This document shows, one piece after another, positions 8,601 to 63,488 of a stretch of 64,000 nucleotides of DNA. The stretch is from Sphaerolaimus hirsutus. Its lineage: Eukaryota; Nematoda; Chromadorea; Monhysterida; Sphaerolaimidae. The notes under the pieces are model-generated. The model was given only the letters and a program-made list of their open reading frames with translations, had not been told where the DNA came from and ran no database searches. The DNA lies in NCBI GenBank assembly GCA_964036195.1, contig OZ038459.1, forward strand, positions 11,777,206 to 11,841,205. Direction: 5' to 3'. The position numbers and the translations under genes were made by a program. The first letter of the stretch is position 1; every line of letters starts with the position of its first letter.

Positions 8601-11600
8601 ATATGCCCAAACCCCCACCAACCCCTCTCGTCGCACGAGTAGCACGCTGCGTCCGACCGTCTGCCCGCGTCCTCGTCCGACGACCCGTCGTGGTACACGT
8701 CGTCGTACGAACGGTGTGACCGCCGTCGACGACCGGTGGTGCCGTAGCTGCGCAGGGAACGAGTGGGGTGGTATTTTAGTAGCTCGAACAGGTTTTTCGG
8801 GTAGACAGGCTAAATCTGTCAAGTTTGGGTTAGGGCTATCCAGGGTTCTCCAAGAGGGGCTTGGGGGGCTGCCCCCCCAATCGGCCAGCTATCTACCTAT
8901 CCCGGAGGCAGCTCAGCTATCTATCTATCTATCCCGGGAAAACCCTATACTATTCCCTTTTTTGGCTACTATTCCCTCAGCCCCCCCCCCCAAAATCGCT
9001 CAGCTATCTACCTATTTGGAACAATTTTTGAGAAATTTTATCCCAATTTTCGCTCAAAATCGCATATTTTTTACTTTTTCTGCCTTTAAAATCGCGGTTT
9101 TCGGCTATATACATGGTTATTTACTTATTTTAGCCACTTTTAACCTATTTTGGCTATTTTTTTTAGCGATTTTCACCCCGGTCTATACCTTGAAAAAGCC
9201 TACCTATATATTTTGCCCCGCGTGCCCCCCAGACAAATTTTCAACTGTCTCTCCGAAGGAGCGGTTTGCTACCTATCCAGCCCCAGCGAGGGCCAAAATC
9301 TTGGAGACCCCTGGTCCCAAATTTAATTCGCCCTACAAATGTTCGTAAGTTATGCCCTACACCTGAGGCGGCCTACGTGCACGTAGGACAAATTCCCATA
9401 CAAATTTTACCAAGTTATGCACGTAAGGCGCCTGACAAATGGAATTTTCAATGACCAAATTTCCAAAATGACTCGCACTAACCGGTGGCTTCTCTGGTGC
9501 CTCCTGCGGCCGTGCGCGTCGTACTCGTTGCCGGCGGCCGTGTCGTAGCACGAGCCGGACCGGTGCAGACGCGACCGGCCGGCCGGCGGCGGCGAGCGCC
9601 TGTCGCGGTAGCGCTCCTTGTCCCGCTCGTAGTTGTAGTCGTAGTCGCGTCTAAGCGAGGGTGCGGCTTATTTGGACCGTTGTTTTGAGGGATGAAGATC
9701 CAGGATAAAGATAATGGCCCCACCGAGAGACTATTTTTGAGTCAAATGAATATCAAGGAAATTGCAAATTCCACTGACAGTGCAAACAATCATATAAAAA
9801 AATGTAGTAAAACTAGGGTTGGCCGATGTTTTTTTTAAACGTTTTTTTTTGTTAAAACATGACGTCCGAAATGTTTTGTTTTTTTAAAAAACATCAGCCG
9901 AAATTTTTAGTACTAAGCACTAGGTATTTGTGCAAAATTTTTGCGCGCAAGCGCGCAATTTCACACACAAATTGACATTGGTGGTCGTTTTCATTGGTTT
10001 TGTGGCATTTTTAGTATCAAAGTATCCATTTCTATGTGCTACCATGGGTTAATAAGCCGTCATATGTTGCTGTACTATATAATATTGAGGTAATGTGCTT
10101 CCATGTGCCTCCGCAGTGTGTAACTTCACTCCCAAAGTAACAACCTCCTTTTATAACCTTGTTTGATCACTATTCCATGCCAAACTTTACCTGAAGTCAC
10201 GAACATTCGACTATAAGGCGATATACGAGCGATATGTCGACGAAAAATGGATATTTTTGACACAAATCACCACTTATAATGCTATCCCATGGCTCCACAG
10301 CCATTATATGGTCATATATAACATCACAGAGTATTGCCACTGTCTGATATACCTATATATGTTGACACAAGGTCATATCTGGGAGCTTTTAAAAAAAACG
10401 TTTTTTATTTAAAAAAAACGTTGTTTTTTTATAAAAAAAACATCGAGTTAAAAAAAACGTTTTTTTCCAACCCTAAGTAAAACCTAACCGTAAGTTGACT
10501 ACTAAATTGAAACCTCGCACGAAATTCTAAAATTTGCATGATTAAAACGTGTCTTGATTTAGACTCAGGCGCACGATTGGGATTAACATTGAAAAAATAG
10601 GTGATTTTGTGAAAATACAACAGAGGCGTCCAATTCTAAAGTCGACGAGACAAAAATATGAAAATTTCGAGTTAGGCCCGGAAACGTCATCTGGCGCTAC
10701 TTCCGCACATTTTTCATCATTTTCCATAAAGTTTTTGACCTCACATGCCCATATGGCAAAGTGCCAAATTTGACATTTTTGGGGAAAAATGCAAAAAAAT
10801 TGGGAAAGAAGTCGACAAACCCACTTAGTTTTGGGTTAAAAGTCGACAAGTCCATCGTCCGCATCCTTCTTATGGGAAAAAAAGAAATGTGATAGTCCAC
10901 TGTTGTCACCGATTTCTAAAGCCGGAATTACAGCTCATCGGCGTTTGACGTGAAATGATGACGTCGTAAAATTGATTACATCAAAATAGACATCGGTACA
11001 GCATTGAAATTTCAGAATTAGATAGTTCTAGTAATTGTGTGTAATGTCCCAAAAAAATTTTTTCAAATAATCATTATTTAAGTAGTTATTAATTTAACGT
11101 AAAATTTTTTAGGTGATGTAAAATGTTTGACGTGAAACGTTTTGACGTAGAATGTGTAAATAACTTATTAAATAATAATGATTTTCTTAATTTTTTTAGG
11201 ACATTACACACAATTACTAGAACTATCAGATTCGGAAATTTCAATGCTGTACCTTTGTCTATTTTGATGTAATCAATTTTACGACGTCATCATTTCACGT
11301 CGCTGAGCTGTAATTCCGGCTTTAAAGGCGACACGTCCATAATTTTCCCATAAGGCAGCTCGATCGCCGCCGGGAACAAAAACGTTCTTGTGTGCAAGAA
11401 GTCAACTAGGTAGTTCATTTCCCTCCCCAAAACAGTTTTGCTCTGACCAAATGGAATTTTATGAACACCCCATTTTTCACATATAGGTTGAGGTTAGGGG
11501 CTGAAAATTTGTCACTTTATTGTCAACATATGGAACTTGATGGAAAACACGAGAGAGCCAAATTGGACACGCACCAGGGGCCTGGAATTGGGTCTGAAAC

Positions 11601-14600: not shown

Positions 14601-17600
14601 GGAAATACGGTAATTAGGACAGGTGAAAACGATATTCCATATTTGATGTACACAAAGTGTGCAAATCTGTCAGAACACTCAACTTTCTCTGTGCGCTTGG
14701 GGTGCCCGATGCGAAGCGTCGGGCCCAGGCAGCCCCCACGCGGCCGGCCGTTAAGCCTGGCATGAGATGAACGCAACTCGAACGGGTTGCCGTTTGCGCG
14801 GGGCACCACTTACAAATCCCGTGATAAATAACAACGGGCAATATTTGGCGCACCACACGCAGGAATTTTGAGTTATGCGTTTGAACGTTTTTTGGACGCA
14901 GAATAGGAATGCATATCTTCAAAAAGTTTGAAGGCATTCCTAATCCTTGAACTTTTCGTCCTTATCAATATTCCTTTTTATAGGTTGAATCCATGGCGGT
15001 GACGTCACAAAGCAACGTCGCAATGTCGCACTTCACCACACGGTTCCACTTATTGCAATTTCAATTCACTGCTATTTCAAGGTACCGCTGCGATCTTGGT
15101 CCAATTATTTTTGCGTGCCGTGTCCAGTAATGAACAGTTTGAACAGGCTAAAAATAGCACCCCCCCCCTGCTTGAAACCGCTTGAAATCATGCGCATTCT
15201 AGACACACCCAGCCCAGCCAGAGTACAGACCCAGCAGTTATCTGGTTGCATGGTATCAGATAGGGCACTGGCGGTAGCTCAAATTTAGTGCGCCATGGGA
15301 GGAGTGACCTCATCTCATATCACTGAGGCAAGCATGACAAATGGGTGCCCATCCCCGCCCAGCCCGCTAGACATTCGTTTGCCACGACCGAGCAATAGAC
15401 ATTAGGTATCGCTGGACATGCGTGAGATTTCGGTCATTTCTAGTTACTGTTCAATTGACACGTTGATGTTTAACGGGACAAATCAAATTCGACGGACCCG
15501 CAGATAAGTTAAGAGGTTTTCTAGTCGTTCGTGGATTCGTAACCTGCATAAAATTAGAATTACAGAAGCTAGTCAGACAGTCGTATTTATGTAGATGGGC
15601 AGAAAACTTTAAGCAATTTCAGTAAAATAAATGACAGGCAGCACCGGACCAGTTCCGCACGCACCATAAAACGCGGTCCATGAAACTTGATGCCATAAAG
15701 CCTACTTTTTGCGTCTCTTAAGCCTCAATAAATAGGAAAGGAAAAACGGTGGCAGTGCATTATCAACCACCAACATATGTATTTTATAAACACAACTGTA
15801 AATACTGCACAAAAACGGAAATAGAACGTTCTATTTCCGCGAGCGAATGCGCTATCATAAAGCTGATGTTAATCCCACCGGAACGGGTAACGTGATGCAC
15901 CGTAAATTCAAAAGTTTTGGTTGATATGAATTACAAAATAATGCATACAGTTTATGCTCGAATAATTCCCACTCTTCTGAGTGCGAGGAAAAAATACCCC
16001 CCCCCCCTAAATAACTCCCACTCAAAAACTTCTGACGAAAAATAACTCCCCAGGGCACTCATTCGAGGATATAAATACGTTAGGTGGTTTTGAGATTTGC
16101 CATGAAGAAAGTAGAAAAGTACTGTGTTCAAAAATCAACATGACCACCCAACCCACCATTTCATAAAAAAATTACAGAATAAATTCACTCAATCCACTAA
16201 AAACAACACCTACGGAAACTGTTATTTCGGGACACGATGAAAATAATAAATACTTTTTCACTTTTACCAAATGGCAAACTGCATAGTGGAAGTGGTGTCT
16301 TCATCAATTTTAAGTAATAAAAATAAATGTACCTTAACAGACAATTTCACGTTTTACACTGCATTTGCATTTTACGTCAAGGGTCTCCAATGGGGTGGAA
16401 AAGGGGTACCCCAAATCCTACAACTGTACATCTAAATACCTATGTATGTTCAAGTTCAGCTAGTTATATCTATACCAGAAACGTTTCGGCAACTACCAAT
16501 GGCCTCCCCAATAGTCCAGTGATCTACCGATGTTTATCTACACAAATTAAACCTTAAAATAGATTTTTTACACACCATTGTCTATTTTGAACGATTCGAA
16601 CCCTCACTACAGTCCAAATGTAGGAAACATAAAGCTTTGAGATCGTCCTAGTAAATCTCTCCCCACGCGTAGCGTGGGAACTTAGCGACGCCAAAAAAAA
16701 CACCAAGTGGGATAATCGTAGAAAAAAACCCAGACCAAACCAGCACAGAGTGTGCCACACTGACCATAAATCCGAAAAGGCCGCCGCCCGACGAGCTCTG
16801 CTGTTGCGGCTGCTGCTGCTGCTGCTGCTGCCCATGCTGCTGGTGCTGCTGACTGGGCTGCTGCTGCTGCTGCTGCTGGCCGCCGCCCATAATCGTTGAA
16901 AAGAGGCCGCCCATGCCGCCCGAAGAAGACGCGGCTGGCTTGGCTGGTTGCGGCTGTTGTTGTTGCGAGTAAGGCTGCAAGGTGCGAGGGTGAGTTTTGG
17001 GATTTGTTTGAACGTGCAGCTACCTAATAAGGATGGAAAACTGCTGTCCTAAATTATTTGGCGTTGACTAACAGCACCTAATGGCAGTGATTTAATATAC
17101 TGCAAAACCTCGGCCATCCCTAGGTTAGACTGACGAAACCCGCTACAACTGCCAGAACAAGATGCAACAGCGTACCAAAGAGACAAACACAGAACCTGTT
17201 GCTGTTGGTGCGGCCCGCCGGGGTGCTGCTGCTGCTGTTGGTGTTGATATCCGCTTTGGCCGGGCGTCGGCTGCATGTGCTGCTGCGCCGACGATGTGAC
17301 CGATTGAGTCAGCGAACTGAACAAGCCGCCGCCCGTCTGCAGGATGGTCGATTGAAAAGTGCGTGAATGAGACGCCATAAAGCAATTTTTTGAGTCAGTC
17401 ACTGAGGAGTGACATGACAGCTCCCTACTTAGAGAAAATAAATACAAGTGATAATCGATATGCCGTGCTTAGGGTTCAAACGGGATCCCGATCCCGGATC
17501 CCGTGAAATTCCGGGATTTAGCAGTCCCGATCCCGATCCCGAAACCCCAATCCCGATCCCGATCCCGATCCCGAAATCCAAAAATACCAATCCCGATCCC

Positions 17601-20600
17601 GATCCCGAAAATTTTCAAATCCCGATCCCGATCCCGAGAATCTCCCAAGTCCGGGATCCCGATCCCGGAAAAAATAGTGGAAATTATAAAAAGTGAAAAA
17701 GTTAAATTTTTGCATGCAAAAATGCGAACGCAAACCCCCAGCGTCAATTTTATGTCACTTTTCTAGCATCCAACAGTGTTTTGAGACCTTTTTGAACAAC
17801 TGTGAATGCCAGAACAGTGACGAAAATCTCTATCCCTAGACCCCAATCCCGATCCCGAAAAAATGCCAATCCCGATCCCGATCCCGATCCCGTGACCCCA
17901 ATCCCGGCCAATCCCGATCCCGAAATCTCAAAATACCAATCCCGATCCCGGTCCCGATCCCGAAACCCCAATCCCGATCCCGATCCCGAAATATCAAAAA
18001 GTGAATCCCGATCCCGATCCCGAAAAGTCAATCCCGTTTGAACCCTAGCCGTGCTATCTGTTCACTGTTATGGAGTGTACTGTCTTTGGTGATAACCCAG
18101 ATTCTTGAAAAACACTGAGAAGGGGGTTCCGATTCCAAATCAAAAACGCAATAACTCTTGCTTCCAATGTGTCTTTTCGACATCGTATAACCGCGAAGTG
18201 AGCAATTTTCAGTTCAAAAGAAATTTTTAGAAATTTGAAAATCTCATCGATTAATCAGAGTAAATCGACTACCAGTCTACACAAAACTGACTGAAGTGGA
18301 CGGCTGACTGGCAGACTGCGTCGTAGCAGTGGAGTCGCCAAATAAGCTGCCCAGCAAGCCACCAGACTTCTGCTGTTGCGGCTGCGGCGGCTGCTGCTGT
18401 TGCTGGTGGGGTTGCTGCTGCTGCTGCGCGCCCATCATGTGCTGCTGACCGTGCTGCTGACCGTGCTGCTGCTGACCGTGCTGCTGCGCCACGCCGTTCA
18501 TGGCGCCCTGGGCGGTGCTCGGCGGCAAGATGGCGTCGTTCGGCGCGCCGCTCATCCCCTGCGTGCAGATCACCGTGAATATATCTTATTGTGATGGAAA
18601 CTAGTATTTGAATATTTTACACTCCTCGGCGGGAAACGTGTGAGTCAACTAGCCACCTAGCACGCTAAGTGAGAGAAACGAAAATGAAACAAAAGCCGAA
18701 AATTAGCAGTTGGTGAAAAGGGTAGCCAAGAGAAAAACGATACCGGTGCGGTGATGGTTTCTAGCTGCCTGCCATTGTGCCCCAAGGCGGGAGGGCGTCC
18801 GTTTTGGCGCATGCCCTGCTGCTGTTGCACCTGCGGCTGCTGGGCCACAGACTGATTAGTCAACGTGTTCTGTTGGGGCCTTTGCCCAGCGGTTCTTTGC
18901 TGCGGCTGCTGCTGCGGCTGCTGCTGTGGCTGCTGTTGCAGCTGTTGCGGCTGCTGTTGCTGCTGGTGCGGCTGCTGTGGCTGGTGATTGTGTTGCGTAT
19001 GTCTGAGTGCATCATGGGCGGGCTCGGGCTGCCGCCCCATATGATTGTTCTGATGCGGCAGCTGTTGCTGCTGTTGCTGCCGCTGCTGCTGGGCCGCTTG
19101 CTGCGAGTGCCGTTGCTGCGCCTGTTGCGACGTGCCACCCGTCGAATTGACCGCCATCTGGTTATTCATCTGCAAGCACGCCCACATCTCGGGTTTAAGT
19201 TCACTACGATCACCTTCACTCACATTGGCGAACCTAGGCACTCAACGCCACCCCAATCAAATGATAACACAAGGCTCAGTTAGATAAAATATTTGTGCAG
19301 CTAGTCTCAGCGAAGAAACGGTAAACATATGTCCAACCAAAAGAGATAAATTATACAGTTACTTCTACACAATAGAGGGGGTTCTACTGCTTGTTTTCTA
19401 TTTTAATTGACCGCAATCCGAATAAAGAGTCCAATTACTTGCTGCTCATGGACTCTGGCCTGATTTTTCACCCAGAAAGGGCAAGGAATGGCCCACACAC
19501 ATAGTTGACATCGCAAATAAATGTCAACTGAATGTCAACTAAATAACACCAAAAACTTCAAAGCTACACACCTAATAGAAACAATGAAAATTAAGTGTCA
19601 CGATAAAAAGTTAATTATGCTCTATCACAAGTTGAAATCACAAAATTAACCAACATTTAGTTGACACGAATTTTCATGTCAACTCGTGTGTGTGTGTGTG
19701 TGTGTGTGAGAGAGCTCTTTGAACCACATAATACTTGTTGTGTGAACGCTCGTCCAGGGCCAGCGATTACCTAGTGCTTGTTTTCTGTTCAACTACACCA
19801 GATAAATATACAAATTGATAACACACTATCTATTGCAATGAAAACAATGAACCGATGTCTTAGGTGTTAAATGAACGAAATGAAACAAAATGGGAGGAGA
19901 AAATAAGACGTCTAAATGAATGTAGATGTCAGGGCCTAGTTCTGGGTTGTGACAAGGGCACCTGCAAACACAAAGAATAAACAAATTCGAAACACATATC
20001 TATAACAAATACTCGTGGATATGTACCGCAATTTTTTCCCAACTTTTTTGTTATATTTACTCCGCGGACCGCATTTGCTATGCATTCTTCTGAAGGAAAC
20101 ATTCCATCATGACGTCACCGTTGAATCAAAATTGTTCAAAAAAAGAAGAAAAAAAATTCCCCGCTTGTACGTGACTCCGCCTTTTTATTTTGAATTTTTT
20201 TTCGTTTTATGAAAGTGCGAGCAGAACTATCCTGTTCGCGCATTATCGACTAATCTAAGGCATAAGTAATTTTAGACGCGTACTTTGCGGTCCGCCGAGT
20301 ATACTCATATTTGTTGGTCTAAAACTGTAATTAAGCCGTGAGTGTCCAAAATGGCCAATAATACGATAAAACCAAGTAAAAAATGCAATCCAAACCTGAT
20401 TGTGTGGCTGCTGCTGCGGTCCACCCATGGAAGTGTGGCCGTGAGGCTGCGGCCCCATCATGGTGCCACTGGTGGTAACCGGCTGCTGGTGCACCGACTG
20501 CTGCATCTGTTGGTGGTGCTGCTGTTGCTGCTGTGGCTGCTGTGGCTGGTGTTGTTGCTGGTGCGACTGTTGTTGCTGGTGCGACTGTTGTTGCTGCTGC

Positions 20601-20977
20601 GGCTGGTGTTGCTGCTGCGGCTGGTGCAACTGCGACGGCTGCGACTGCGGCGGCTGCGTCTTCGATGCGGCCAGTTGGGCTAGCGGGTGATTTTGGTTGC
20701 CGGGCATGGGCGGTGGCATTTGCGGCGGCACGTGGTTCTGCATCGACTGCCCCGTGGTGGAGTGGGGCGGCGGCTGTTGTTGTTGCTGCTTCTGCCCCAT
20801 GCCCGGTATGGTGGGCGGGGGGCCGCCCGTAGCCGCGGCCACGCCCTGAGAGGCGACGTCGGCGGCCGCGGTAGCCGCCCCGGCGGCCATGCTGGACGCC
20901 TCGGCGACGGCCTTCTGACCAGCGGCGGCCGCTTGGCCGACGGCGCTGGTCAGCCCGCCCATGAGCCCCTTGAACAT
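5566..20977 (-). CDS. Glutamine-rich disordered protein, nine-exon model (5' complete, 3' end outside window)
   Basis: Nine exons (20977-20396, 19169-18744, 18558-18292, 17336-17196, 16974-16765, 12083-11881, 9650-9483, 8747-8623, 5663-5566) join with GT-AG introns and fully compatible phases into 2220 nt, exactly 740 open codons. Residues 1-60 are Ala/Gly-rich and possibly helical. Residues 60-590 are mostly Gln with Pro and His, punctuated by GGLF-type motifs. Residues 590-608 are Arg/Asp/Glu alternation, and 610-708 are Arg/Ser/Tyr/Asp-rich. The last 32 residues end in a basic amphipathic stretch (AAKIKKFLS). No enzyme domain, signal peptide or membrane segment is visible. The start is the first Met after an in-frame TGA 12 nt upstream and lies in a CpG-rich island. 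The composition suits a condensate-forming scaffold, for example a synaptic scaffold or an RNA or transcription cofactor. I do not recognise the family, so function is open. Confidence 0.8.
5718..5733. repeat. (CA)n microsatellite
   Basis: A short CA run directly precedes a TTGACAT...ATGTCAA palindrome. A similar pairing with a (GT)n run occurs near 19686. Confidence 0.8.
5735..6362. mobile_element. Inverted-repeat unit enclosing family G copy 2
   Basis: About 38 bp at 5737-5777 (CAGTTGACATCGACACC, then AACTGGTTCTGATCC) recurs inverted at 6322-6362 with a few mismatches. Between them lies a family G core (ACTCGAGTACAGAG, gcatacgtatacg). This looks like a composite element or an inverted duplication of the flank. 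It sits in the intron between exons 9 and 8. Confidence 0.5.
6363..7348. other. Intronic A+T-rich DNA, nothing recognised
   Basis: Intron 8 of the Q-rich gene. I see no exon, no RNA gene and no repeat with clear ends here. Confidence 0.5.
7349..7585. repeat. Fold-back element, GCCAGTTCCGCAAAATG family, copy 1
   Basis: The ends GCCAGTTCCGCAAAATGAGA and its complement enclose inverted arrays of AAATGGCAAA / GCGAAGTAAAA words. A second copy at 28911-29250 has a true tandem minisatellite inside. Confidence 0.65.
7825..8580. mobile_element. Family G element, copy 3
   Basis: It has inverted ends with aagtatctgagtacag and gaaaatg... / cattttctgtactga..., matching 4290-4790 and 5820-6300. It lies in intron 8, ending about 40 bp from exon 8. 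Confidence 0.4.
8623..8747 (-). CDS. Q-rich gene exon 8 (Arg/Ser/Asp-rich)
   Basis: It completes codon 666 and encodes residues 667-707 plus one base. The sequence is YGTTGRRRRSHRSYDDV, then an acidic HDGSSDED patch and a short CYSC motif. The acceptor is CCCTGCGCAG. The donor AGGG/GTTGGT leaves one base, which the two leading bases of exon 9 complete. One CxxC alone is not enough to call a zinc finger. Confidence 0.74.
8841..9313. mobile_element. Family B hAT element in intron 7
   Basis: The ends are CAGGGTTCTCCAAGA and TCTTGGAGACCCCTG. Inside are CTATCTATCTATCCCGG words, poly-C runs and a central block with ttttggctat. It matches the complete copy at 27347-27841. No target duplication is visible, so it may be altered at one end. 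Confidence 0.7.
9483..9650 (-). CDS. Q-rich gene exon 7 (Arg/Tyr/Ser-rich)
   Basis: It begins with the single base completing codon 610 and encodes residues 611-665. The start (RDYDYNYERDKERYRDRR) continues the charged alternation of exon 6, followed by SPPPAGRSR and a His/Arg-rich tail. It ends with two bases of codon 666. The acceptor is CTCGCTTAG and the donor CACCG/GTTAGT. Codon use is very GC-rich compared with the flanking introns. Confidence 0.78.
9814..10475. mobile_element. Family A hAT element, copy 1 (intron 6)
   Basis: TAGGGTTGGCCGATG to CCAACCCTA, 662 bp, with a perfect 8-bp duplication AGTAAAAC (9806-9813, 10476-10483). Both subterminal zones are runs of poly-T/poly-A interrupted by ACG. 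The core has no coding capacity. Confidence 0.9.
10917..11324. repeat. Palindromic fold-back element, GCCGGAATTACAGC family
   Basis: The ends TAAAGCCGGAATTACAGCT and its complement pair across about 400 bp (arms about 150 bp). Inner words such as gacgtcatcatttcacg and acacacaattactagaac appear in both arms. The terminal TA suggests a TA duplication. The element at 47940-48384 shares the same end. Confidence 0.75.
11881..12083 (-). CDS. Q-rich gene exon 6 (polyQ to Arg/Asp-rich transition)
   Basis: It encodes residues 543-609 plus two bases of codon 610. The first half is Gln/Asn-rich and the second half is alternating Arg-Asp/Glu, ending in DEHDEYGRQMPGSS. The acceptor is CTCCACACAG and the donor TCTAG/GTGCGT. 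The 2-nt overhang is completed exactly by exon 7. This is the boundary between the low-complexity half and the charged half. Confidence 0.8.
12748..12804. repeat. Two-copy 27-bp tandem repeat
   Basis: Two adjacent units read ttcaaacttgaaaatgtgg plus ctcaaatt. They lie in intron 5, whose remainder from 12084 to 13600 shows no exon. Confidence 0.75.
13640..13860. other. CpG-rich island in intron 5
   Basis: A short GC-rich block with GCGGCCGC and repeated CGGCGGGC words, in A+T-rich surroundings. The open frames here lack splice sites or protein-like pattern. It may be regulatory. Confidence 0.4.
13930..14416. mobile_element. Family T element, inverted
   Basis: The right end is gggggtatttcgagg followed by AAATACGGTA (to 14416). 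The left end is degraded near 13940. The core words cagaacacacgttaaaac, gttagaacagtg and tgcatttttctac are shared with the copies at 25528, 34368, 39061, 56545 and 61070. A second partial unit runs 14417-14612. Confidence 0.65.
14840..14950. repeat. Interspersed repeat shared with 46300-46425
   Basis: Both places carry ttgagt(t/c)atgcgtt, aaacgtttttttgga, atatcttcaaaaa and a shared tcctgatccttc-like tail. Neither copy has clear ends. Confidence 0.55.
15060..16560. other. Intron 5 DNA with family T debris
   Basis: 15955-16075 has family-T-like words (aaataccccccc, aataactccc). The rest of the intron up to exon 5 shows no recognisable feature. Confidence 0.35.
16765..16974 (-). CDS. Q-rich gene exon 5
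   Basis: It encodes residues 473-542 (70 codons, phase 0 to 0). Two Gly-Leu-Phe motifs (GGMGGLFSTIMGGG and SSSGGGLFGFM) flank a polyglutamine stretch. The acceptor is CACCTTGCAG and the donor TTTATG/GTCAGT. A 4.7-kb intron follows. Confidence 0.8.
17196..17336 (-). CDS. Q-rich gene exon 4
   Basis: It encodes residues 426-472 (47 codons, phase 0 to 0). It opens with TGGGLFSSLTQSVTSS and then turns into Gln/His/Pro sequence. The acceptor is CATCCTGCAG and the donor CAACAG/GTTCTG. The 955-bp intron before it holds a complete family-D hAT element. Confidence 0.78.
17470..18047. mobile_element. Family D hAT element, copy 1 (intron 3)
   Basis: TAGGGTTCAAACGGGAT to ATCCCGTTTGAACCCTA, with a perfect 8-bp duplication GCCGTGCT (17462-17469, 18048-18055). 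ATCCCG hexamers are tandemly repeated on both sides of a core containing tgcatgcaaaaa and ccaacagtgtttt. The Ser/Arg-, Asp/Arg- and Gly-rich frames are repeat artefacts. Confidence 0.92.
18292..18558 (-). CDS. Q-rich gene exon 3
   Basis: It encodes residues 337-425 (89 codons, phase 0 to 0). It starts GMSGAPNDAILPPS, passes through HGQQ-type repeats, and ends with a glycine-leucine-phenylalanine motif (KSGGLLGSLFG) followed by Ser/Thr-rich sequence. The acceptor is ATCTGCACGCAG. The donor TTCA/GTCAGT is acceptable but not strong. Confidence 0.78.
18744..19169 (-). CDS. Q-rich gene exon 2
   Basis: It encodes residues 195-336 (142 codons, phase 0 to 0), from MNNQMAVNSTGG to QLETITAP. It is dominated by Gln with scattered His, Pro and Arg. 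The acceptor is a clean GTGCTTGCAG and the donor CACCG/GTATCG. Because the exon begins with an ATG and is symmetric, it can be skipped without a frameshift or joined to an alternative upstream exon. Confidence 0.8.
19494..19710. repeat. TTGACAT inverted repeats beside a (GT)n tract
   Basis: TTGACATCGCAAATAAATG and TTGACACG...CATGTCAA flank about 170 bp. A (GT)n microsatellite at 19686-19708 follows. The same small palindrome with a CA run occurs at 5718-5760. Confidence 0.5.
20038..20310. repeat. Interspersed repeat R (intron 1)
   Basis: Words ctccgcggaccgcatttgct, catcatgacgtcacc and attgttcaaaaaaag recur at 21765-21945 and, inverted, at 30880-30990. The tail at 20221-20310 resembles window positions 1-60. 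The ends are not defined. Confidence 0.5.
20396..20977 (-). CDS. Q-rich gene exon 1 (start codon)
   Basis: It encodes residues 1-194. It begins MFKGLMGGLTSAVG, continues as an Ala-rich segment to about residue 50, then Pro/Met-rich and His/Gln-rich sequence. The donor is CAG/GTTTGG and the exon ends in phase 0. An in-frame TGA lies 12 nt before the ATG, so the start is well supported. The Leu- and Cys-rich frames on the plus strand here are shadows of the CAG codons. Confidence 0.82.
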
Positions 20978-21340
20978 GATGGCTGCGCTTCACTTGACGA
21001 TCGAGCTACGCAGCGGCTCGTAGATCAGTTCGCCGGCGAGCAGGCCGCGGCGCCCGCATCGGGGCGGCAGCTCGCCGCTGCGCCGAAGCGGTGGGCCCGG
21101 CGGGGCGGCCGCCACCGCCCTTGGCCGCCGCGCCGCATGCACCGGTGCGCTGCTGCTGTCGGTGCGGCCGGCGCTCCACCGCCCAAACTTCGTCCCGCCG
21201 GTGGTGCGCGCCAATGTGCAAAACCGACCGTGGAAATTGAATGGATTTTGCGCGAAAAATCGACCGGCCGATTTCACGGTGGATAATTGCTATTGTTTGC
21301 CCGGTTGCAGGTAACGGAGTGGGCAAAGTGGCGGCGCGCG
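20640..21340 (-). promoter_or_regulatory. CpG-rich island at the start of the Q-rich gene
   Basis: GC content and CpG density rise sharply over exon 1 and about 350 bp upstream of the ATG at 20977, including repeated CGGCGGCCGC-type words. It drops back to A+T-rich DNA past 21340. The 5' UTR and transcription start are probably here. No TATA box is evident, as expected for a CpG-type promoter. Confidence 0.5.
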
Positions 21341-33222: not shown

Positions 33223-33259
<37 letters not shown>

Positions 33260-48936: not shown

Positions 48937-49016
48937 CTATGAAGAGTGAGTTTTTGGGGGTTTGAAAATCAATTTTGGACTTTTTTAAGTTGCCCTAAAT
49001 CCTCGAATGAGACCCC

Positions 49017-50264: not shown

Positions 50265-50273
50265 CTGTGGGGG

Positions 50274-50454
50274 CAGTCCCGGACACTGTAAAACGCCGTG
50301 TGAAATGTAAAATGTCATGCAAAGTGTCAAAAGTTATGGAAAATGCCCTGCAAAATGGCAACCGAATTGACATTTTGCAGGGCATTTTACACGACTTTTG
50401 ACACTTTGCGTGACATTTTACATTTTACAGGGCATTTTACAGGGTCCGGGACTG
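50274..50454. repeat. Fold-back element next to a splice acceptor
   Basis: CAGTCCCGGACACTGTAAAA pairs with TTTTACAGGGTCCGGGACTG. The arms read aaatgtaaaatgtcatgc and gcagggcattttac inverted. It ends 9 bp from the exon at 50069-50264. Confidence 0.8.
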
Positions 50455-50747
50455 GCACCTGGTGGAACCAACGGCCGCTCTTCGCCAACAGTTGCTGCCG
50501 TCGTTGGCACAGCCGGCACGCCCAAACGGTCTGCGAAACGACGCAGCCAGTATGATTTCGTACGATTGATAACACACTCTCGCGTATTTTGAACCCTACA
50601 GAAAAAAATCAGTTTATCAGATCAAAGTGATCCAAATCCGCAAACATCTAATCACTTCGAATAACCGCTTTCAATCTAAAAAAATGTCGGCGACATGCAG
50701 TCACCATCCGGTCAACACTGAACTAAATATAAAAGCGCCAATAGAAC

Positions 50748-51693: not shown

Positions 51694-51694
51694 C

Positions 51695-52440
51695 TAGGGT
51701 TGGAAAAAACGTTTTTTCAACGACCCTGTATTTTCAAAAAAGTTGTTTTTTGAACGTATTTTTTCAAAAGTTCTCAAATATCGTTATGAGTCAGTCGAGT
51801 TACAGGCATGTCAGACAGGTGTCAGCAAGGACGTATCCAGGGGGGGGGGCTGCAGCCCCCCCCCCGTTCTCGGGGTCGGACTTGAAAAACACGAGGAAAA
51901 TCAACTTTTCGTAGCAATTTTTAAGGTGTGGTGTAAAAAATTTTGCGCGCAAGCGCGCATTCGTCCACCACACAGAGGTATTATAAACAGTCGACCCTGT
52001 AAATACACTAAATGGCCGGCCTGTCGCTCTATATGTAGGTGTATTTACATACATAATAAGCGATTTTTGGCGCCAGCGCCAACGCCAATGGCACCATGGC
52101 GTGGCGCCTACGAATGGGGGGGCTTTTACCTCACTTTATAGGTAAAATTTGAGGGGGGGGGGGGGCTGAGCCTCCCCCCCCCGTTCGCCGGGCTCCGTAA
52201 ACAAGCAGCCCCCCCCCCCCCGCTCAAAAATCCTGGATACGTCCCTGTGTGTCAGTTAATTTGTGACCTTATAAATAGTCATACAATGGCTGTGGAGCCA
52301 TGGGAGCATTTTAAATGGTGATTTATATCAAAAATATTCATTTTTATGTGACTCGTTATGTATTTATTTCGTTATGCAGATCGCCGTGTTGATGTTGTTT
52401 TTTAATATATATTTTTAAAACTTGAAAAAACACCGTCCAT
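51695..52440. mobile_element. Old family-A relative interrupted by family F
   Basis: It starts TAGGGTTGGAAAAAACG. Core words ggctgtggagccatggga and ggtgatttatatcaaaaat resume after 52255, and it ends near aacaccgtccatccca. Confidence 0.6.
51826..52247. mobile_element. Family F element (GGACGTATCC ends)
   Basis: CAAGGACGTATCCAGG to CCTGGATACGTCCCTG, 422 bp, with long G/C runs next to both ends. The flanks GGTGTCAG and TGTGTCAG match 7 of 8. Single ends of the same family occur at 37371 and 45095. An internal GCGCCAGCGCCAACGCCA cluster is at 52070-52110. Confidence 0.75.
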
Positions 52441-54215: not shown

Positions 54216-54634
54216 TTTGTTATCCTTTGAAGTTGGAGAGCGCGTCAAATTTCATACCCATCAAAAGCGTCCTGTTTGGTAGATTTCTCATTTCCGTATT
54301 TGCAGTTCCGCATAGTGATGGCGGGTTTTTTTCAAAATTAAAAAAAAATAGAAAACGTTTTTTATGCAAGCATTGAAACCGTTTTTTTGAACTAATGCAT
54401 CAGGTATATTGCTACATTTTTTGTACCTAATCAGTTTTTTTGTACCTATGTACCAAAGTTTCAGTGTCCCGTGCGCCAATAAGTATGGGTACGAATATAA
54501 CTTTTGAAATAAGGGGGTTCGTTAAATATGGCAACATACATTGTGTCACACAAAAGTCGAAATTTGCATGCTCAAGTGCAAAGAAATGCACTATTACGTT
54601 TACATATTATGACCGTTCCCTAAAAAGCCGGGTG

Positions 54635-55675
54635 CTATCCCGGTCCCAGTCCCGATAATAGAATATGTCAGTCCCGGTCCTGGCACTGGTACGGTCCCCC
54701 AGCCCCGGCCGGTTCCAGAATTTTATAGTGGTCCCGATAAGGGATGAAAACATTTCTTTCAATAACATGGGTATGACAAAACACAATTAAAAAAGGTCTT
54801 TCAAATGCTCCCAAATATAGTTATGATGTCATCAACATAAATATAAATACATGTATACCAGACAATAGGCAGTACTTTATGATGTTATATATAGCGATAG
54901 AGACTGGCTGTGGCTCCATGTGATAGCATAACGAGTTGTAATGTCATCCAAAAATCAATTTTTATGTAAACTTGTCACATATTAAAAACAAAACTGTCTG
55001 TATACCGGTATTGCTTTCTGTTGAATGTTCGTGACTTCTAGTGAAGTTAAGCATGGAATAGTGCTTTAAAAATGTTATAAGAGAAGGCTAATCCATTGGG
55101 AGCGGTGTTTTCCACAGTGGAAGTATGTGGAAGCACAATGGCAGGATATTATACCCTACACTAACATATCACAGCCTATTATTACATTGTAAACACCTTC
55201 CCGGTCACGTCCGGCACCCATTTTTTGATTTTACTTCTCACATCCTATACCCAGTTCTAGGGTGCCGCAGAGGCTGAAACTTGGAGGAGATATTGGCGCG
55301 ACCCCCCTAATTCATGCGAGGTAGAGGGGGGTTGCGCCAATATCTCCCCCAAGTTTCAGCTTCTGGCGCGCCCTAGAACTGGAGATAGTGTGTCACAAGC
55401 ACGATCAAAAATAGGGTGCCGGACGTGACCGGGAAGGTGTTTAGTTCTGGTCCCGATACCTCAGTCTCGGTCCCGTTAAGCCAGTCCCAGTCCCGGACCT
55501 GACACACAAGTCTCGGTCCCGGTCCCGATGAAAAAATGCCAACGCCGGTCCCGGTACGATGCGCCAGTCCCGGACCCGGTCCCGATAAGAAACATTTCTG
55601 GTCCAGTCCCGGACCCGGTCCCGATAAGAAACATTTCTGGTCCCGGTCCGAAAAACTGATCCCGTTTGAACCCTA
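54635..55675. mobile_element. Composite: family D-like ends around an A-like core and a palindrome
   Basis: GGTCCCAGTCCCG words at 54640-54730 and 55450-55660 flank a core with family-A words (gcagtactttatgatgtta, ggctgtggctccatgtga). The right end is CCCGTTTGAACCCTA. The left terminus is lost. Confidence 0.55.
55190..55443. repeat. 254-bp palindromic element with TA ends
   Basis: TAAACACCTTCCCGGTCACG pairs with its complement. The arms of about 115 bp also share aaacttggaggagatattgg. TA at each end suggests a TA duplication. Confidence 0.8.
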
Positions 55676-55829: not shown

Positions 55830-56545
55830 GAGGTCTCCAATGGGGGAGGGGTTGATGGGGGCTGTTACCCCCCAAATCGGCCAGCTATTTATCCATGTAT
55901 TCAAGACCCCACTCAGCTAAAAATATGTATTGTATTTAAAAAATTGTTTCAAGTTTATTTCACTGTGGGAATTTCACCCCCCCCCTAGGGTTCAAACGGG
56001 ATTCCGATCCCGATCCCGGATCCCGTGAAATTCCGGGATTTAGCAGTCCCGATCCCGATCCCAAAACTTTTCAAATCCCGATCCCGATCCCGAGAAACTC
56101 CAAAGTCCGGGATCCCGATCCCAGAAAAATTAGTGGAAATTATCAAAAGTGAAAAAACTAAGTTTTTGCATGCAAAAATTGTAAACGCAAACCCCCAGCG
56201 TTCATTTTATGCCACGTTTCTGGCATCCAACAGTGTTTTTAGACCTTTATGAACAACTGTGGATGCCAAAACATTGGCCAAAATCTCTATCCCAAGACCC
56301 CAATCCTAATCCCGAAAAATGCCAATCCCGACCCCGATCCCAATCCCGTGACCCCAATCCCGGCCAATCCCGATCCCGAAATCTCAAAAAAACAATCCCG
56401 ATCCCGAAAAGTCAATCCCGTTTGAACCCTACCCCCCCCCCCCAACTGAACATTTGCAGAGTTTACTTTTTACTTTTTTTACTTAGGGAACTTTTAACAC
56501 GTTTAGCTATTTTTCCGTCTTCTACACCTCCATAGTATAGTACCT
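55830..56545. mobile_element. Family B relative interrupted by family D
   Basis: 55838-55985 has gtctccaatggggg, aaatcggccagct and poly-C. It resumes after 56431 with tttttacttagg and cttctacacctcc. Confidence 0.5.
55986..56431. mobile_element. Family D hAT element, copy 4
   Basis: TAGGGTTCAAACGGGAT to ATCCCGTTTGAACCCTA, 446 bp. It is inserted in a run of C, so its duplication (C8) is consistent but not informative. Confidence 0.85.
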
Positions 56546-57870: not shown

Positions 57871-57892
57871 CCTGATGAACACACAAGTGATC

Positions 57893-58099: not shown

Positions 58100-60077
58100 C
58101 CTTACTGTTTTCTTTTTAGAAACGTTTTTTTAAACGCAAGCATCGACAATAACAAACAATTTTTGAAAGCGGCAGCTGAAATTTTCTGAAACAAACATTC
58201 TCAAATTAGCAGCTGAACATCACTCAATGGATTAACCTTATTTTATAACGTTATTTTCCTTATGTCAAACATCACTTAAAGTGTCACGAATGTTCAGCAA
58301 ATGGTGTTATATACAATGGGCCAACATAAAAATGGATATTTTTGGCAGAAATCATCACTTAACAATGCTATTCTGACTCGGTGTTGATACTCATCTAAGC
58401 CCACTACTCATCTAAAACACGTCACTTATCCTAAACCTACCACTCATCTAGTGCTACCTGTTACTCATCTATACCGCCACAGCAAGCAGACATCGCACTA
58501 TGGGCACTGCACAACTACATGAAGCCAAGCAGCAAACATACATAAATACATAAAAAATACCCGGTGGCTGGCACAGGCTAGGGTGTCAACTTTCCGTTTT
58601 CCGTTTTCCGTTTCCGCTTTCCGCAGGCAAATTTTTTCCGTTTCCGTTTCCGTTTTCCGGCTGCTAAATTTTTTTTCCGTTTCCGTTTCCGTTTTTCCGG
58701 CTCATTTTCCGTTTTCCGGCTAAAATTTCAGTTTTTCCGCCTTTTTTCCATTTTCCGGCTCAATTGTCTGTTTTTAAAACTTTTTTTCCATTTTCTGACT
58801 CAATTCTGTTTTCTGTTTCAGCCAAACTGATAAACATGCATGCAGGTTCTCAATTATGTGAATTGTTTCTATTTCTAGCAAGATTTCTGCAAATTTTTTT
58901 GATTTCTGGATAAATTTCTGCAAATTTTTTCCGTTTCCGGCATAATTTCAGCAAATTTTTCCGTTTCCGTTTCCGTTTTCCGGCCTTTCATTTTTCCGTT
59001 TTCCGTTTTCCGGCAGGTGCAATTTTTTTTCCGTTTCCGTTTTCCGGCAAGTGTAAATTTTTTTCCGTTTCCGTTTCCGTTTTCCGCCAAAAAGTTTTTG
59101 TTGACACCCTAGGCACAGCCCATGGTGGCAAACATCAAGGACATGTCTGGCGATTGTGACTGGCTGGCTTGTCGCCCAAATAATTTGGAGCTATGTTTTT
59201 CACTATTTTGAGACATGTATCATTTGAGACAAGTATGTATTTCGTAAATTTTAAATGATTATTTATGAAACGAACAATACCTATAATGCAACCATTTTAT
59301 GCGGATCTACATTTTCAATGACAAATGGGAGCCCAAACGACAATAGCGGCAAATACTTTTATACAGATATCTCAAGATAGACTGAAAAAGTAGCTTAATC
59401 CTTTTGTTGGTAAGCTGACCAGCTGCCATCAGTGTATTTTGTGTGTGTGTGCCGCTTGGTGGCACCACTCGATGAGTAGCGGGTATAGATGAGTAGCGGG
59501 TTTAAGTAGTAACAACTACCCACTATTCCACGGCTCCACGGCCATTTTATGGCCATATGTAACATCACAAACAAATGCAACTTGTCTGAGATACCTGACT
59601 GACTGCCTTATAGTCCTATTTGAAAATGTGGTTAATTTTAAAAACCCAGGTCACTGAAAAACTTTTTTCAATCCCTACCGCAGCCAATTGTATGATTACA
59701 AAGTCACTAGCACAATTGAACGAAATGGTATCACATATTACGGGACACAATGTACCAGCTGACCTATGTATTCTCGAACCATGTAAGTATGTTCATGTAT
59801 GCTGTGTGGTTGTATGGTTAGAAGTCGGATGGCAAATTGTACAGCTTTGCTGTACACAGTAAATATCTACTTTTGCGGTAAAAATTTTTAAATGGTATGG
59901 TTAGTGATGGCTGGTGTTTTTAACCATCTTTTTAAATTGTGTTTTTTTAACGCAGGCATCGGAACTGTCTTTAACTGGGAGCTTTTAAAAAAGACTGTCT
60001 TTTTAAAGGTCTTTTTTAAAAGGCGTTTTAGTAAAAGGACAGGGTCGTCAAAAAACCTGTTTTTCCATCCCTAGGTA
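58100..60077. mobile_element. Old family-A relatives with nested insertions
   Basis: 58105-58375 and 59510-59680 hold A-like core words (aaaatggatatttttggcag; ccacggctccacggccatt). The block between them (58376-59509) has ctactcatcta / gatgagtagc inverted ends and itself contains a family C copy. 59895-60077 is the right end of another relative (ttaactgggagcttttaaaa, ttttccatcccta). Confidence 0.5.
58579..59111. mobile_element. Family C hAT element, copy 2
   Basis: TAGGGTGTCAACTTTCCG to GTTGACACCCTA, 533 bp. TTTCCG/CCGTTTTCCGG words fill both halves. The flanks share GGCACAG, an imperfect or offset duplication. Confidence 0.82.
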
Positions 60078-60081
60078 CTGT

Positions 60082-60525
60082 TAGGGTTCAAACGGGATCC
60101 CGATCCCGATCCCGGATCCCGTGAAATTCCGGGATTTAACAATCCAGATCCCGATCCCGAAAATTTTCAAATCCCGATCCCGATCCCGAGAAACTCCAAA
60201 GTCCGGGATCCCGATCCCGGAAAAATTAGTGGAAATAATAAAAAGTGAAAAAATGACATTTTTGCATGCAAAAATGTGAACACAAACCCCCCCAGCGTCC
60301 ATTTTATGCCAATTTTCTGGCATCCAACAGTGTTTTGAGACCTTTATGAACAACTGTGGATGCCAGAACATTGGCCAAAATCTCTATCCCATAACCCCAA
60401 TCCCGATCCCGAAAAAATGCCAATCCCGATCCCGATCCCGTGACCCCAATCCCGATCCCGATCCCGAAATCTCAAAAAAACAATCCCGATCCCGATCCCG
60501 AAAAGTCAATCCCGTTTGAACCCTA
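60082..60525. mobile_element. Family D hAT element, copy 3
   Basis: TAGGGTTCAAACGGGAT to ATCCCGTTTGAACCCTA, 444 bp, with a perfect duplication GGTACTGT (60074-60081, 60526-60533). It stands a few bases from the end of an older TAGGG element. Confidence 0.92.
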
Positions 60526-60833
60526 GGTACTGTATGGAAAATCGTCATTTTTGCGGTACACGGTGCGGTAATTCTGAAAAATGCAGTAACAGTAACTGGT
60601 CCGGTACGGTACATTTTGCGGTACAGTACGACAAATTATGCAAACCCTAGTTAGCAGAGTGCTGCACATGCGCAAGTAGCACGGCACGCGAGTGGCAAAA
60701 CATCGGTCCACCAACGCACCACAAGACAACGGGTCATTTACTTAACTTTAGAACAACACGTGTCTGTCGCTATATTGCGTTCATGTAAATATTCAGGTAT
60801 AGTAAAAAGTGGCCGTAATTCAATATATGAACT

Positions 60834-61069
60834 CAGGGGTTTTGTAGATTTGGACCCCCGCGGGGGTTCATATAGATAGCAAATCGCTCCTCCGGAGGGA
60901 TAGATAGCTGAAAAAATTTTGGGGGGAGGGTTGGGGGGGCGGTTCGTGGGGGTTCAATATATAGGGTTTTCCGAGGTATAGAAGGAAGAAAAAGGGGAAA
61001 AATCGCTAAAAGTAGGTGAAAAATGGCTAAAAATACTTTTTTAAGCACAAGCGTATATAAGCACATATA
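60834..61069. mobile_element. Family B fragment
   Basis: It starts caggggttttgtagatttgg, with gatagatagctg and poly-G words and a ccgaggtatagaagga core. It is cut off by a family T element. Confidence 0.55.
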
Positions 61070-61519
61070 TACCGTATTTCCTCGAAATACCCCCCGGGGG
61101 GTGATTGTTTCATAGTGGTCCCGTTAGGGGGGGTTCAACGAGGGGGGGGGGGGGTATTTCGGGGGGGGGGGTCATTATTTCGCCAGAAATTTTTTCAAAT
61201 CCTAGTACAAAATCGTCGTTTGTGATGTAGACTGGGGTAGAAAAATGCATCAATAACTGACATGTATAGACTCCTGTAGACTAATAGTAGTACGTAGATG
61301 GTATAAACACTGTTCTAACGTGATTACGACATTGTTTTAACGTGTGTTCTGCACTACGCAGAACACAAACTGCAGTATTTGTCATGTACGTTCTCTTTAC
61401 ACTCAATCTGGGGGGGGGGGGTATTTCGAGGGGGGGGTGATTGTTTCATAGTGGTCTCGAGAGGGGGGGGGTCAACCGAGGGGGGTATTTCGAGGGGGGT
61501 ATTTCGAGGAAATACGGTA
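61070..61519. mobile_element. Family T element
   Basis: TACCGTATTTCCTCGAAATA to its complement, 450 bp. The core is in the orientation opposite to 34368-34809. Confidence 0.8.
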
Positions 61520-61795
61520 GCCAAAATAGGCTATAATGAACATGAACGAGCGATTTTGGAGGCGAAAAACTATAAAAAGGTAGGAAAATTAGCGATTTTG
61601 AGCAAAAAAATTTCAAAAATCGCTCCAGATACATAGATAGCTGGACGATTGGGGGGGGGGGGTTAGGAGATAGTAGCCAAAAATTTTGCCTCCGGGATAG
61701 ATAGAGAGCTGAGCGGGCCTCCGGGATAGATAGATAGCTGGCGGATTTGGGGGGGGGGGGGTAACGCCCCCCCAACCCCCTACTAAACCCCTGTA
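61520..61795. mobile_element. Family B fragment, inverted
   Basis: Words aaaatcgctccagatacata, gggatagatagatagctg and G/C runs lead to the end tactaaacccctg. The 287-codon minus frame across 61446-62309 is an artefact of these repeats. Confidence 0.55.
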
Positions 61796-62041
61796 TGAAC
61801 TGACAATAAGCACTCAATTGTGAAATTGGTAGTTCAATGCCCAAACAAGGACTCCTGAAAAAACCCGACTCCTGAATAGGGTTGGAAAAAAAACGTTTTT
61901 TTTCAACTCCATGTTTTTTTAAAAGCACCCAGATATGGCATTGTGTCAACATATATAGGTATATCAGACAAGTGGCAATACTCTTGATGTTATATATGAC
62001 CATATAATGGCTGTGGAGACATGGGATAGCATTAGAAGTGG

Positions 62042-63488
62042 CAGGGGTATCTTGAATTTTGACCCTCTGATTGGTTGGATAGATAGCAAATCGCTCCTCC
62101 GGAGGGATAGATAACTGAAAAAATTTTCTGGGAGGGTTGGGGGGGTTGCGGGGGTTGGGTGGGTTGGGGGGGTTGAGGGGGGGGGTTGTGGTTCGATATA
62201 TAGGCTTTTTCGGGGCATAGAAGGAAGAAAAGAGAGAAAAATCACTAAAAGTAGGTGTAAAATAGCTCAAAAATGGTATATAAGAGCATTTAGTACTAAA
62301 AATAGGCAAATAGGAAGCAGAACTATGATTTTGGAAGTGAAAATCTATAAAAAGGTATGAAAAATATCGATTTTGGGCGAAAATTGGGGTTTAGTATCTC
62401 AAAAATCGCTCAAGATAGGTAGATTGCTCGGCGATTTGGGGGGTGGGGGTTTAGGGTAGGGTGTCAAAAGAATTTTTTTATGGAAAAGGGAAAACGGAAA
62501 GGTCAAATTTTTTCACTTTACGGAAAACGGAAAACGGAAAGGTCAAAAAAAATTTCTGCCGGAAAACGGAAAACAGAAATGTGAAAAAATTTCACTCAGC
62601 GGAAAACGGAAAGGTAACAAAAAATGAAAACGGAAAAATGAAATGCTGGAAAACGGAAAATGGAAAGCAAAATTTTCATGAAAACGGAAAAAATAAAGTG
62701 AAATTTGCACGGTAAAAGACAAATTTGCAGAAGAAAAACCTGCATGCAGGTTTCCTGTTTGGCTTTGATTGTGGTAGCTGTACATTCTGCGACTATGGAT
62801 CATGCCAGTAACTTCACTTGTAGTTCAAGCTTAACTGAACCAACAAAAAATCATCACAAGGTAGCAAAAATACACTACAACAACAATAAGAATTTAGCAA
62901 AAGTGAACTTTGATGTAACTGAACAGTAAAAAGTATACTCAGCGGACTGCAAAGTATGTGTTCAAAATTACTTTGTGTTTTTTACAGATTTGGATACAGA
63001 TAAAAATTATGAATGACAGAAGAACCTGGTAGTTAAAAACACCATAGTGGAAAAAGATAAATACAGATTGGAAAAACAATGGAAAAATGCCAGAAAACTT
63101 AAACTCGAGCCAGAAAATGGAAAAATGGCCTGGAAAAATGGAAACGGAAAGGTAAAAATTTTTCAGCCGGAAAACGAAAAAATTGGGCCGGAAAAACGGA
63201 AACGGAAAGGTAAAAAATTTTCAGCTGCCGGAAAACGGAAAGATTAAAAATTTTCGACTGCCGGAAAACGGAAAGGTAAAAATTTTTCCTGCGGAAAGGC
63301 GGAAATGAAAACGGAAATTTGACACCCTAGTTTAGGGGGTAGTAACCCAAAATTTTGCCTCCGGGATAGATAGATAGTTGAGCGGCCTCCGGGATAGATA
63401 TCCCGGAGTCCGCTCAGCTATAACCCCTATATAGGTAACCCCTATATATAGATAATAGGTAACCTCCCCCCCCCATTCGAGACCCCTG
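62042..63488. mobile_element. Family B hAT element, copy 3, inside family A
   Basis: CAGGGGTATC to GACCCCTG, with a perfect duplication AGAAGTGG (62034-62041, 63489-63496) within the family A core. It is itself split by a family C copy. Confidence 0.9.
62457..63329. mobile_element. Family C hAT element inside family B
   Basis: TAGGGTGTCAAAAG to TTTGACACCCTA, 873 bp, with a perfect duplication GTTTAGGG (62449-62456, 63330-63337). GGAAAACGGAAA words are tandem at both ends. The unique core at 62715-63040 has no convincing coding frame. Confidence 0.92.

Follow-up and report, generated by a model that had tools for sequence, protein, structure and literature searches.

The analyzed window, a 64,000-nucleotide stretch of the nematode Sphaerolaimus hirsutus (contig OZ038459.1, positions 11,777,206 to 11,841,205), contains several families of short transposons, named here A to G, with their diverged relatives (Table 1). 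Judged from their sequence, they are non-autonomous hAT elements of 0.16-1 kb that resemble miniature inverted-repeat transposable elements (MITEs). Inside the short inverted ends lie arrays of amplified motifs, and in B, C1, C2, D, and E these arrays run along one strand through both arms. The arrays are carried from copy to copy, and in two groups they differ by single bases under a largely kept terminus.

The ends were examined by pairing [TC]AGGG with CCCT[AG] at spacings of 60-6000 bp across the window and comparing the flanking 8-mers. Of the 980 pairs found, 13 were flanked by perfect 8-bp target site duplications (TSDs), where chance would give about 0.02 (number of pairs x 4^-8, multiplied by an ad hoc 1.5). 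On the same pairs, lengths of 5-7 and 9-12 bp gave 0-2 duplications each and a length of 4 bp gave 8, while six offset controls gave no perfect match and 1, 1, 0, 0, 0, and 0 matches with at most one mismatch. Eleven of the twelve perfect duplications listed in an earlier note on this DNA lie on such canonical ends. The twelfth, CTTGTCAC of C3 (51307/51478), is a genuine 8-bp repeat beside a degenerate 3' end (TGGACTGTCGA, 8/11 against TAGGGTGTCGA by eye). Two perfect-duplication copies were added to the twelve, D at 55986-56431 and B at 60834-61793, along with E, F, G, D5, and A33, further elements or ends that bear arrays. The duplications of F (1353-1821; ACTCTGGC/ACCCTGGC, the sole such match within 1.5 kb) and C2 (58579-59111; GCACAGGC/GCACAGCC, offset by one base) agree at 7/8 positions. 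A duplication with a matching end was looked for and not found at E, G, A33, A60, D5, and the end of A6.

The first 12 bases of the terminal inverted repeats (TIRs) agree between the two ends with at most two mismatches in D1, D2, D4, C1, B1, B2, and A4. The remaining A copies match over 9 bases, and D3, dropped from the 12-base comparison by its low-complexity duplication, has matching ends in the end-pair scan. The five-base end common to the families is generic for hAT elements. Thus, 8-bp duplications, short YAGGG-type TIRs, and subterminal repeats at both ends (C3 is without repeats) back the hAT assignment made in the earlier note. MITE traits are found in A (5 full copies, 660-707 bp) and D (4 copies, 444-609 bp). 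The elements are probably non-autonomous, since no transposase domain was matched at the curated cut-off in 40 of the 69 window open reading frames (ORFs) of at least 110 aa (the other 29 and all shorter pieces were outside this test). The A-core ORFs of A2 and A3 had no Pfam match.

The proposal that motifs are amplified beyond the ends was borne out. For TCGGGATCGGGA, the D tandem, 52 copies were counted within the elements (12.1 kb) and 0 outside them (51.9 kb), and the inside and outside counts are 18 and 11 for TAGATAG, 37 and 10 for AAAAACGTT, and 36 and 10 for ACGGAAA. CGGAAA is distributed over the left, middle, and right thirds as 11/0/12 in C1 and 15/1/17 in C2, and CGGGAT as 17/3/16, 20/3/16, 9/0/8, and 12/0/11 in the four D copies. 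Tandem repeats are reportedly carried by a Xenopus MITE that Hikosaka and Kawahara described in 2004 (cited in PMC2872659), and the arrays might likewise be passenger mini- or microsatellites, born by slippage inside non-autonomous elements and without function. Slippage gives head-to-tail arrays for free, and the D copies vary in length, with 6 bp, the size of the unit, as the commonest gap between them (11 of 31 pairwise gaps), indicating unit-sized later changes. A common direction in both arms would need merely an arm-to-arm duplication; the D2 arms align over about 160 columns with a score of 175. Sites beyond 50 bp in the left end of the housefly element Hermes are also described as dispensable (PMC10368747). 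However, the arrays of A-D are almost wholly confined to the two outer thirds, and those of E and F lie in both arms (limits set by hand). The D tandem is never found outside elements, the D motif runs on into the terminus (CAAACGGGAT), and the C unit includes the known Ac binding hexamer. We therefore regard functionless passengers as possible but doubtful. An ordinary genomic microsatellite is rejected for D by the 52 to 0 counts, and the rejection is weak for E, F, and G.

The arrays of C to G have a CGG core in common, so that the private motif assigned to each family in the earlier note holds only in part. When 32 strand-collapsed trinucleotides were ranked by array enrichment relative to the remaining window sequence (hand-set array limits; D1 and D3 left out), CGG was 4th in C1, 2nd in C2, 3rd in D2 and D4, 1st in E, 3rd in F, and 2nd in G. 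Because E is related to D, the enriched groups count as four independent ones. The hexamer AAACGG is found in the outer 200 bp 13 times in C1 (7+6) and 21 times in C2 (11+10), all on one strand. In the same interval A, B, and F have none, D has one per end, and E and C3 have one each, leaving C1 and C2 as the only elements with at least three. It is very improbable that the arrays act instead as G-quadruplex structures or as sites for host factors. The G-rich strand of D has 2-8 quadruplex-type matches per copy with none on the other strand, and B has 0-2 per strand, but none of the A, C, E, and F elements tested had a match, so quadruplex formation is rejected as a shared explanation.

The motifs had been described as inverted between the two sides, and this does not hold for B, C1, C2, D, and E, where strand counts, alignments, and 7-mers led us to reject inverted arrays. 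All 56 CGGAAA units of C1 and C2 are on one strand (4 vs 1 in C3), as are all 13 TAGATAG units of the three B copies and all 14 CGGGAC units of E. For CGGGAT in the four D copies the figure is 115 of 127, the other 12 lying in the right third, 3 per copy, and CGGTGC in F is mostly one-way (13 vs 5). The A motif is near-palindromic (AAAAAACGTTTTTT), and its orientation is therefore meaningless. In a motif-blind comparison, the 7-mers common to both arms were more often direct than inverted in 16 of 16 elements (C3 excluded), with 30 v 2 and 17 v 0 in C, 14-30 v 2-3 in D, 18 v 0 in E, and 27 v 16 in F. The values of C1, D1, D2, and F (27-30) exceeded all of 500 control pairs (99th percentile 13, maximum 18). 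Local alignment between the arms of C1, C2, and D scored 50-170 in direct and 14-21 in inverted orientation, and the largest direct shuffle scored 61.

With one-way arrays between inverted termini, the two ends are non-equivalent: seen from the tip, the motif faces inward at one of them and outward at its counterpart. The ends of A and D differ in addition by a palindrome just inside one terminus. Read inward, the right end of A has a 16-18-bp palindrome from base 10 in 5/5 copies, and that of D has the 10-bp palindrome CGGGATCCCG at base 12 in 3/4 copies, formed where the terminal CGGGAT meets the reversed array; it is absent from the left end in 4/4 D copies. Palindromes were also found at the left end of F and the right end of B2, and were absent just inside the termini of C, B1, and B3. 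Comparable palindromes occur in 1-1.5% of random 40-mers for the A cases and in 10% for each D case; given this frequency, the D case rests on recurrence and one-sidedness, and the D copies are not independent.

The arrays travel with the element, because copies with different duplications have them in common. Alignment showed one array layout in the five A copies and one in the four D copies, and each arm of D1 and D2 has additional blocks, seen as gaps of 66-84 bp in the alignment, that are missing from D3 and D4. Array growth only after insertion is rejected on the same evidence. Divergence among the D copies is 12.3% in the cores and 4.4-4.5% in the arms, and among the A copies 3.5% in the cores and 13.8% (left) and 4.6% in the arms, the arm values being unsafe because of alignment freedom. 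The expectation that more motifs mark younger elements fails in these two dated families, since A is the younger by core divergence and has far fewer units, and D is older with more. The unit variants of C are alike between arms and unlike between copies: CGGAAAGGT is present 3+3 times in C1 and 0+0 in C2, and CGGAAACGG 0+1 times in C1 and 6+5 in C2. Support for a concerted change of both arms is mixed. These variants and the blocks gained in both arms of the long D copies also favor a view in which the sites are bound but their polarity reflects origin and not function, one arm having been duplicated into the other in unchanged orientation (e.g., by slipped gap repair after excision). Against this stand the direct or mostly direct arrays of all four independent groups and the one-end palindromes of A and D, which with the Hermes polarity argue for a shared requirement. 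Such an origin is a serious candidate that we would nevertheless not put first.

Two groups support, by sequence comparison, a turnover of motifs in small steps under a largely kept terminus. The terminus of E equals that of D over 17 bases, and its array is CGGGAC where that of D is CGGGAT. D5 is identical to D4 at 58/70 positions in the first 72 bp, and its motifs are CAGGAT (8), CGGGAT (2), and TGGGAT (1). CpG decay is an unlikely source of CAGGAT in D5, because the CpG observed/expected ratio of 1.05 over positions 1-64000 is not depleted; this value is unlike that of a heavily methylated genome. In the second group, one visible arm of A33 has AAAAAGCG (3+1) in place of the AAAAAACG of A (none), with the end TAGGGATGGAAAAA; F and A60 have the TAGGGATGGAAA of A33, and their inner sequences differ. 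Whole-element BLAST (>45 bits) did not link the full copies of A, B, C, and D across families; the cross-family hits that it gave were A core-like sequence and a single D-array match, both within E. Thus, the earlier suggestion that families switch motif while keeping the terminus applies to D/E/D5 and A/A33, in one-base steps, and is not shown between A, B, C, and D. E contains A-core-like sequence and a foldback. The A core-like DNA may be a nested relic, and a nested old A-like copy explains E equally well as an A/D hybrid would.

Table 1. Transposon copies and ends in the window (TSD, target site duplication; counts by strand are given as majority vs minority).
Element	Position	Strand	Length (bp)	TSD	Remarks
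A1	9814-10475	+	662	AGTAAAAC	
A2	24285-24991	+	707	GTACCTAT	
A3	36117-36796	+	680	GTAAGGTG	
A4	42218-42902	-	685	ATCGGGAT	within D-like D5
A5	43800-44459	-	660	CACCTGAC	
A6, 3' piece	61877-62041	-		outer TSD not found	split by B3, resumes 63489-~63860
A6, 5' piece	63489-63860	-			right boundary approximate
B1	27347-27841	+	495	GGTATCCA	TAGATAG on both sides, one strand
B2	60834-61793	-	960	TATGAACT	encloses CCGTATTTCCTCGAA-ended repeat 61072-61517
B3	62042-63488	-		AGAAGTGG	encloses C1; inside A6
B-like copy	8841-9313	+		not found	72% to B1
C1	62457-63329	+	873	GTTTAGGG	CGGAAA 23 vs 0; AAACGG 7 left, 6 right
C2	58579-59111	-	533	7/8, offset	CGGAAA 33 vs 0; AAACGG 11 left, 10 right
C3	51315-51477	+	163	CTTGTCAC	C-like; degenerate 3' end; without direct-array signal
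D1 (long)	17470-18047	-	578	GCCGTGCT	CGGGAT 36 vs 3
D2 (long)	27872-28480	+	609	CTCCCACA	CGGGAT 39 vs 3
D3 (short)	55986-56431	-	446	CCCCCCCC (run of C, low complexity)	CGGGAT 17 vs 3
D4 (short)	60082-60525	-	444	GGTACTGT	CGGGAT 23 vs 3
D5, D-like	41867-42217	+		not found	CAGGAT 8, CGGGAT 2; resumes at 42903 past A4; right end not found
E	54615-55675	-		not found	one end has the 17-bp D terminus; CGGGAC 3 and 11, one strand; other end not found
F	1353-1821	+		7/8	terminus TAGGGATGGAAAGGCACC; array CGGTGC; degenerate right end
G	60526-60649	-		no end-like partner	end TAGGGTTTGCATAATTTG; CGGTAC x4 on one strand; one end only
A33	33063-33473	-		no end-like partner	diverged A core (71-83%); end TAGGGATGGAAAAAGCC
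A60	59967-60073	+			end TAGGGATGGAAAAACAGG beside short A-like stretch (CTGGGAGCTTTTAA, by eye); single end seen

Several copies are nested, with C1 in B3, B3 in A6, and A4 in D5. Once B3 is excised, A6 and A1 agree at 475 of the 506 positions aligned. The A core is old and widespread, and diverged relatives of it (67-89% over the matched pieces) lie at 30635-30826, 33154-33473, 34826-35154, 52262-52345, 54847-55181, and 58328-58371. An AT dinucleotide run of 43.5 copies (33223-33307) is located inside A33. A separate repeat family with CCGTATTTCCTCGAA ends occurs at 14401, 14596, 34793, 40672, 45151, 56953, 61072, and 61503; the exact end matches are TA-flanked in 7/8 cases, and the copy lying within B2 contains many runs of C and is unrelated to B. 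Gln-rich ORF pieces on the minus strand (16554-21005) look like a split host gene, and those tested had no Pfam match at the cut-off; D1 starts beside the piece 17049-17468. A 31-bp minisatellite of 6.7 copies with 98% matches (28993-29201) lies between inverted arms at 28912-28968 and 29193-29249. Among the 25 longest of 529 inverted pairs, six are foldback-like (7348-7586, 10947-11301, 47944-48383, 49013-49644, 50269-50459, and 55190-55443), with arms of 64-173 bp that are 79-96% complementary. Rfam and tRNA searches of the window found nothing, and positions 47740-47939 are N.

Subterminal repeats are a textbook trait of hAT elements. Work on Tgf2 calls them a defining hAT feature that is 'haphazardly' placed (PMC4890040), and elements have motifs of their own, such as CG/AATTCAT in Herves (PMC3143072), AAGT in Tol2 (PMC10368747), and TGAATT in Kat1 (PMC4763223). 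Binding of the subterminal motif by the Herves transposase is described (PMC3143072), binding is proposed for Kat1 (PMC4763223), and the maize Ac transposase is reported to bind amplified subterminal hexamers (PMC3260210). The present families are similar to Ac/Ds, as it is portrayed there, in their 8-bp duplications, short ends, amplified subterminal hexamers, and heterogeneous non-autonomous members that share ends and not interiors (PMC3260210). C1 and C2 have AAACGG itself, the maize Ac binding hexamer, and for this reason the binding-site idea is stronger for C. The Ac terminus reads TAGGGATGAAA and its hexamers point inward at both ends. In contrast, the C terminus is TAGGGTGTCAAA and the AAACGG copies in the outer 200 bp of C1 and C2 are all on one strand; nearest to the Ac end is the TAGGGATGGAAA of F, A33, and A60 (positions 1353, 33063, and 60073). 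The 11-bp Ac terminus was not found in the window, where five TAGGGATG matches all continue with G and not AAA; CAGGGATGAAA was not searched as such.

Hermes has CAGAG ends. A Hermes-like end architecture would combine repeats of a single polarity along the element with a palindrome inside one terminus; in the window, one polarity is seen in B, C1, C2, D, and E and mostly in F, and a palindrome in A (5/5), D (3/4), F, and B2 and not in C, B1, and B3. In the Hermes study, a quasi-palindromic repeat pair lies inside the left terminus only, and the authors propose that it is the first site to be bound; LE-STR2-7 have antisense orientation, RE-STR1-5 sense orientation, and elements with two left or two right ends are nearly or fully inactive, so that end asymmetry is required (PMC10368747). 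If both Hermes ends are read inward, as DNA substrates are written, its repeats would likewise run in one direction along the element. Unlike the tandem arrays of this window, the Hermes motif AAGT/AAGC is present as 17 and 14 scattered copies (PMC10368747). The uniform polarity of B-E, mostly shared by F, also differs from that of Kat1, whose polarity is described as differing between ends (PMC4763223). CGGBP, hAT-19, and other hAT-derived proteins with BED/Hermes domains have measured motifs of which most contain CGG and a few are rich in AT, and for four proteins encoded by hAT elements the motif matches the subterminal regions of the element itself (PMC8097297). Similarly, the arrays of C-G are CGG-rich and that of A is AT-rich, a link that rests on motif resemblance.

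These observations are consistent with an absent hAT transposase that would cut at the short YAGGG ends and leave 8-bp duplications. The subterminal arrays would be clusters of putative binding sites for its N-terminal BED/Hermes-type domain, and would recruit it; as amplified transposase-binding sites they are plausible by analogy with Ac (PMC3260210), Herves (PMC3143072), and Kat1 (PMC4763223). Carried along at each move and homogenised as tandem arrays, they would let single-base motif variants spread along the element while the terminus stays. Their direction relative to the inverted termini might mark the ends as different, an asymmetry of the kind required for the assembly of the two Hermes ends. 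That these are non-autonomous hAT families whose one-way, inherited arrays are transposase sites labelling the ends is the account we lean towards, by a modest measure.

Several results weigh against this account. The hexamers of E, F, and G are scarcely element-specific (inside/outside 18/17 for CGGGAC, 19/21 for CGGTGC, and 5/9 for CGGTAC), CGG is without enrichment in A (9th) and B (15th), and D5 aligns to D over the first 72 bp only. In the 7-mer comparison, C2 (17), D3 (14), D4 (15), E (18), and B2 (17) were above the 99th percentile but not above every control, and A (6-13), B1 (13), and B3 (9) were not above that percentile. Arm alignment was equivocal for A (A4 inverted 66, direct 62), weak for B (27-37 v 19-22, with B1 under its largest shuffle), and without signal for C3. 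The independent groups B, C, D/E, and F would agree in polarity by chance in 1 of 8 cases. The arrays are not uniformly conserved, as the A left arm differs by 13.8% and the core by 3.5%, and 8-mer profiles do not group the C1 arms by copy (0.48 within the copy, 0.63 to the same arm of C2). In Hermes, ~70% activity remained after mutation of the BED sites lying deeper than 50 bp in the left end, which calls for caution about a role for every unit; BED domains showed no binding to the repeats of the right end; and an element with two left ends was not rescued when repeat asymmetry was restored in its first 50 bp (PMC10368747). Scrambling that same left-end DNA abolished or nearly abolished mobility, for a reason left unexplained there (PMC10368747).

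The same features can be arranged into a two-part code. Direction, given by one-way arrays, inverted termini, and the one-end palindrome, would allow left-right pairs only, and identity, given by an invariant CGG next to a flank that differs from family to family, would separate co-resident families. With both arms homogenised, a one-base change would sweep both ends and split off a family that is not cross-mobilised under an unchanged terminus. We consider this full scheme unlikely as it stands and offer it as a speculation.

Relatives were sought by pattern scans, five of viral contigs (13, 0, 3, 1, and 0 loci) and one of genome contigs (10 loci). At 23 loci with the D terminus there was no array and no partner end up to 1 kb inward (four have less than 1 kb, and locus L016 just 18 bases), and three others (L025-L027) had no comparable element. 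The remaining locus, L024, an IMG/VR contig, holds a 286-bp element (5750-6035) with inverted ends AGGTATCACGCAA and CGGGAT 12 vs 2 by strand, with no matching flanks and no hAT ends; one-way CGGGAT repeats may thus have arisen there independently. A phage BLAST search with one A core gave no match. As far as the surveyed literature shows, the new features are long one-way arrays in several families at once, a CGG that is common to them while its flank varies, and motif variants that differ by one base although the terminus is the same; that literature gave no statement on motif polarity across hAT families besides remarks on Hermes and Kat1, and one may exist in print.

The reason for which hAT elements need two different ends is unsettled, and in Hermes a deeper end feature is required (PMC10368747). 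The one-way repeats described here might help the enzyme to tell the two ends apart, and natural families that vary in terminus, motif, and motif direction would be convenient material for testing this. Such families also give insight into the way in which single-base changes in amplified sites might make related transposons of the same genome orthogonal.

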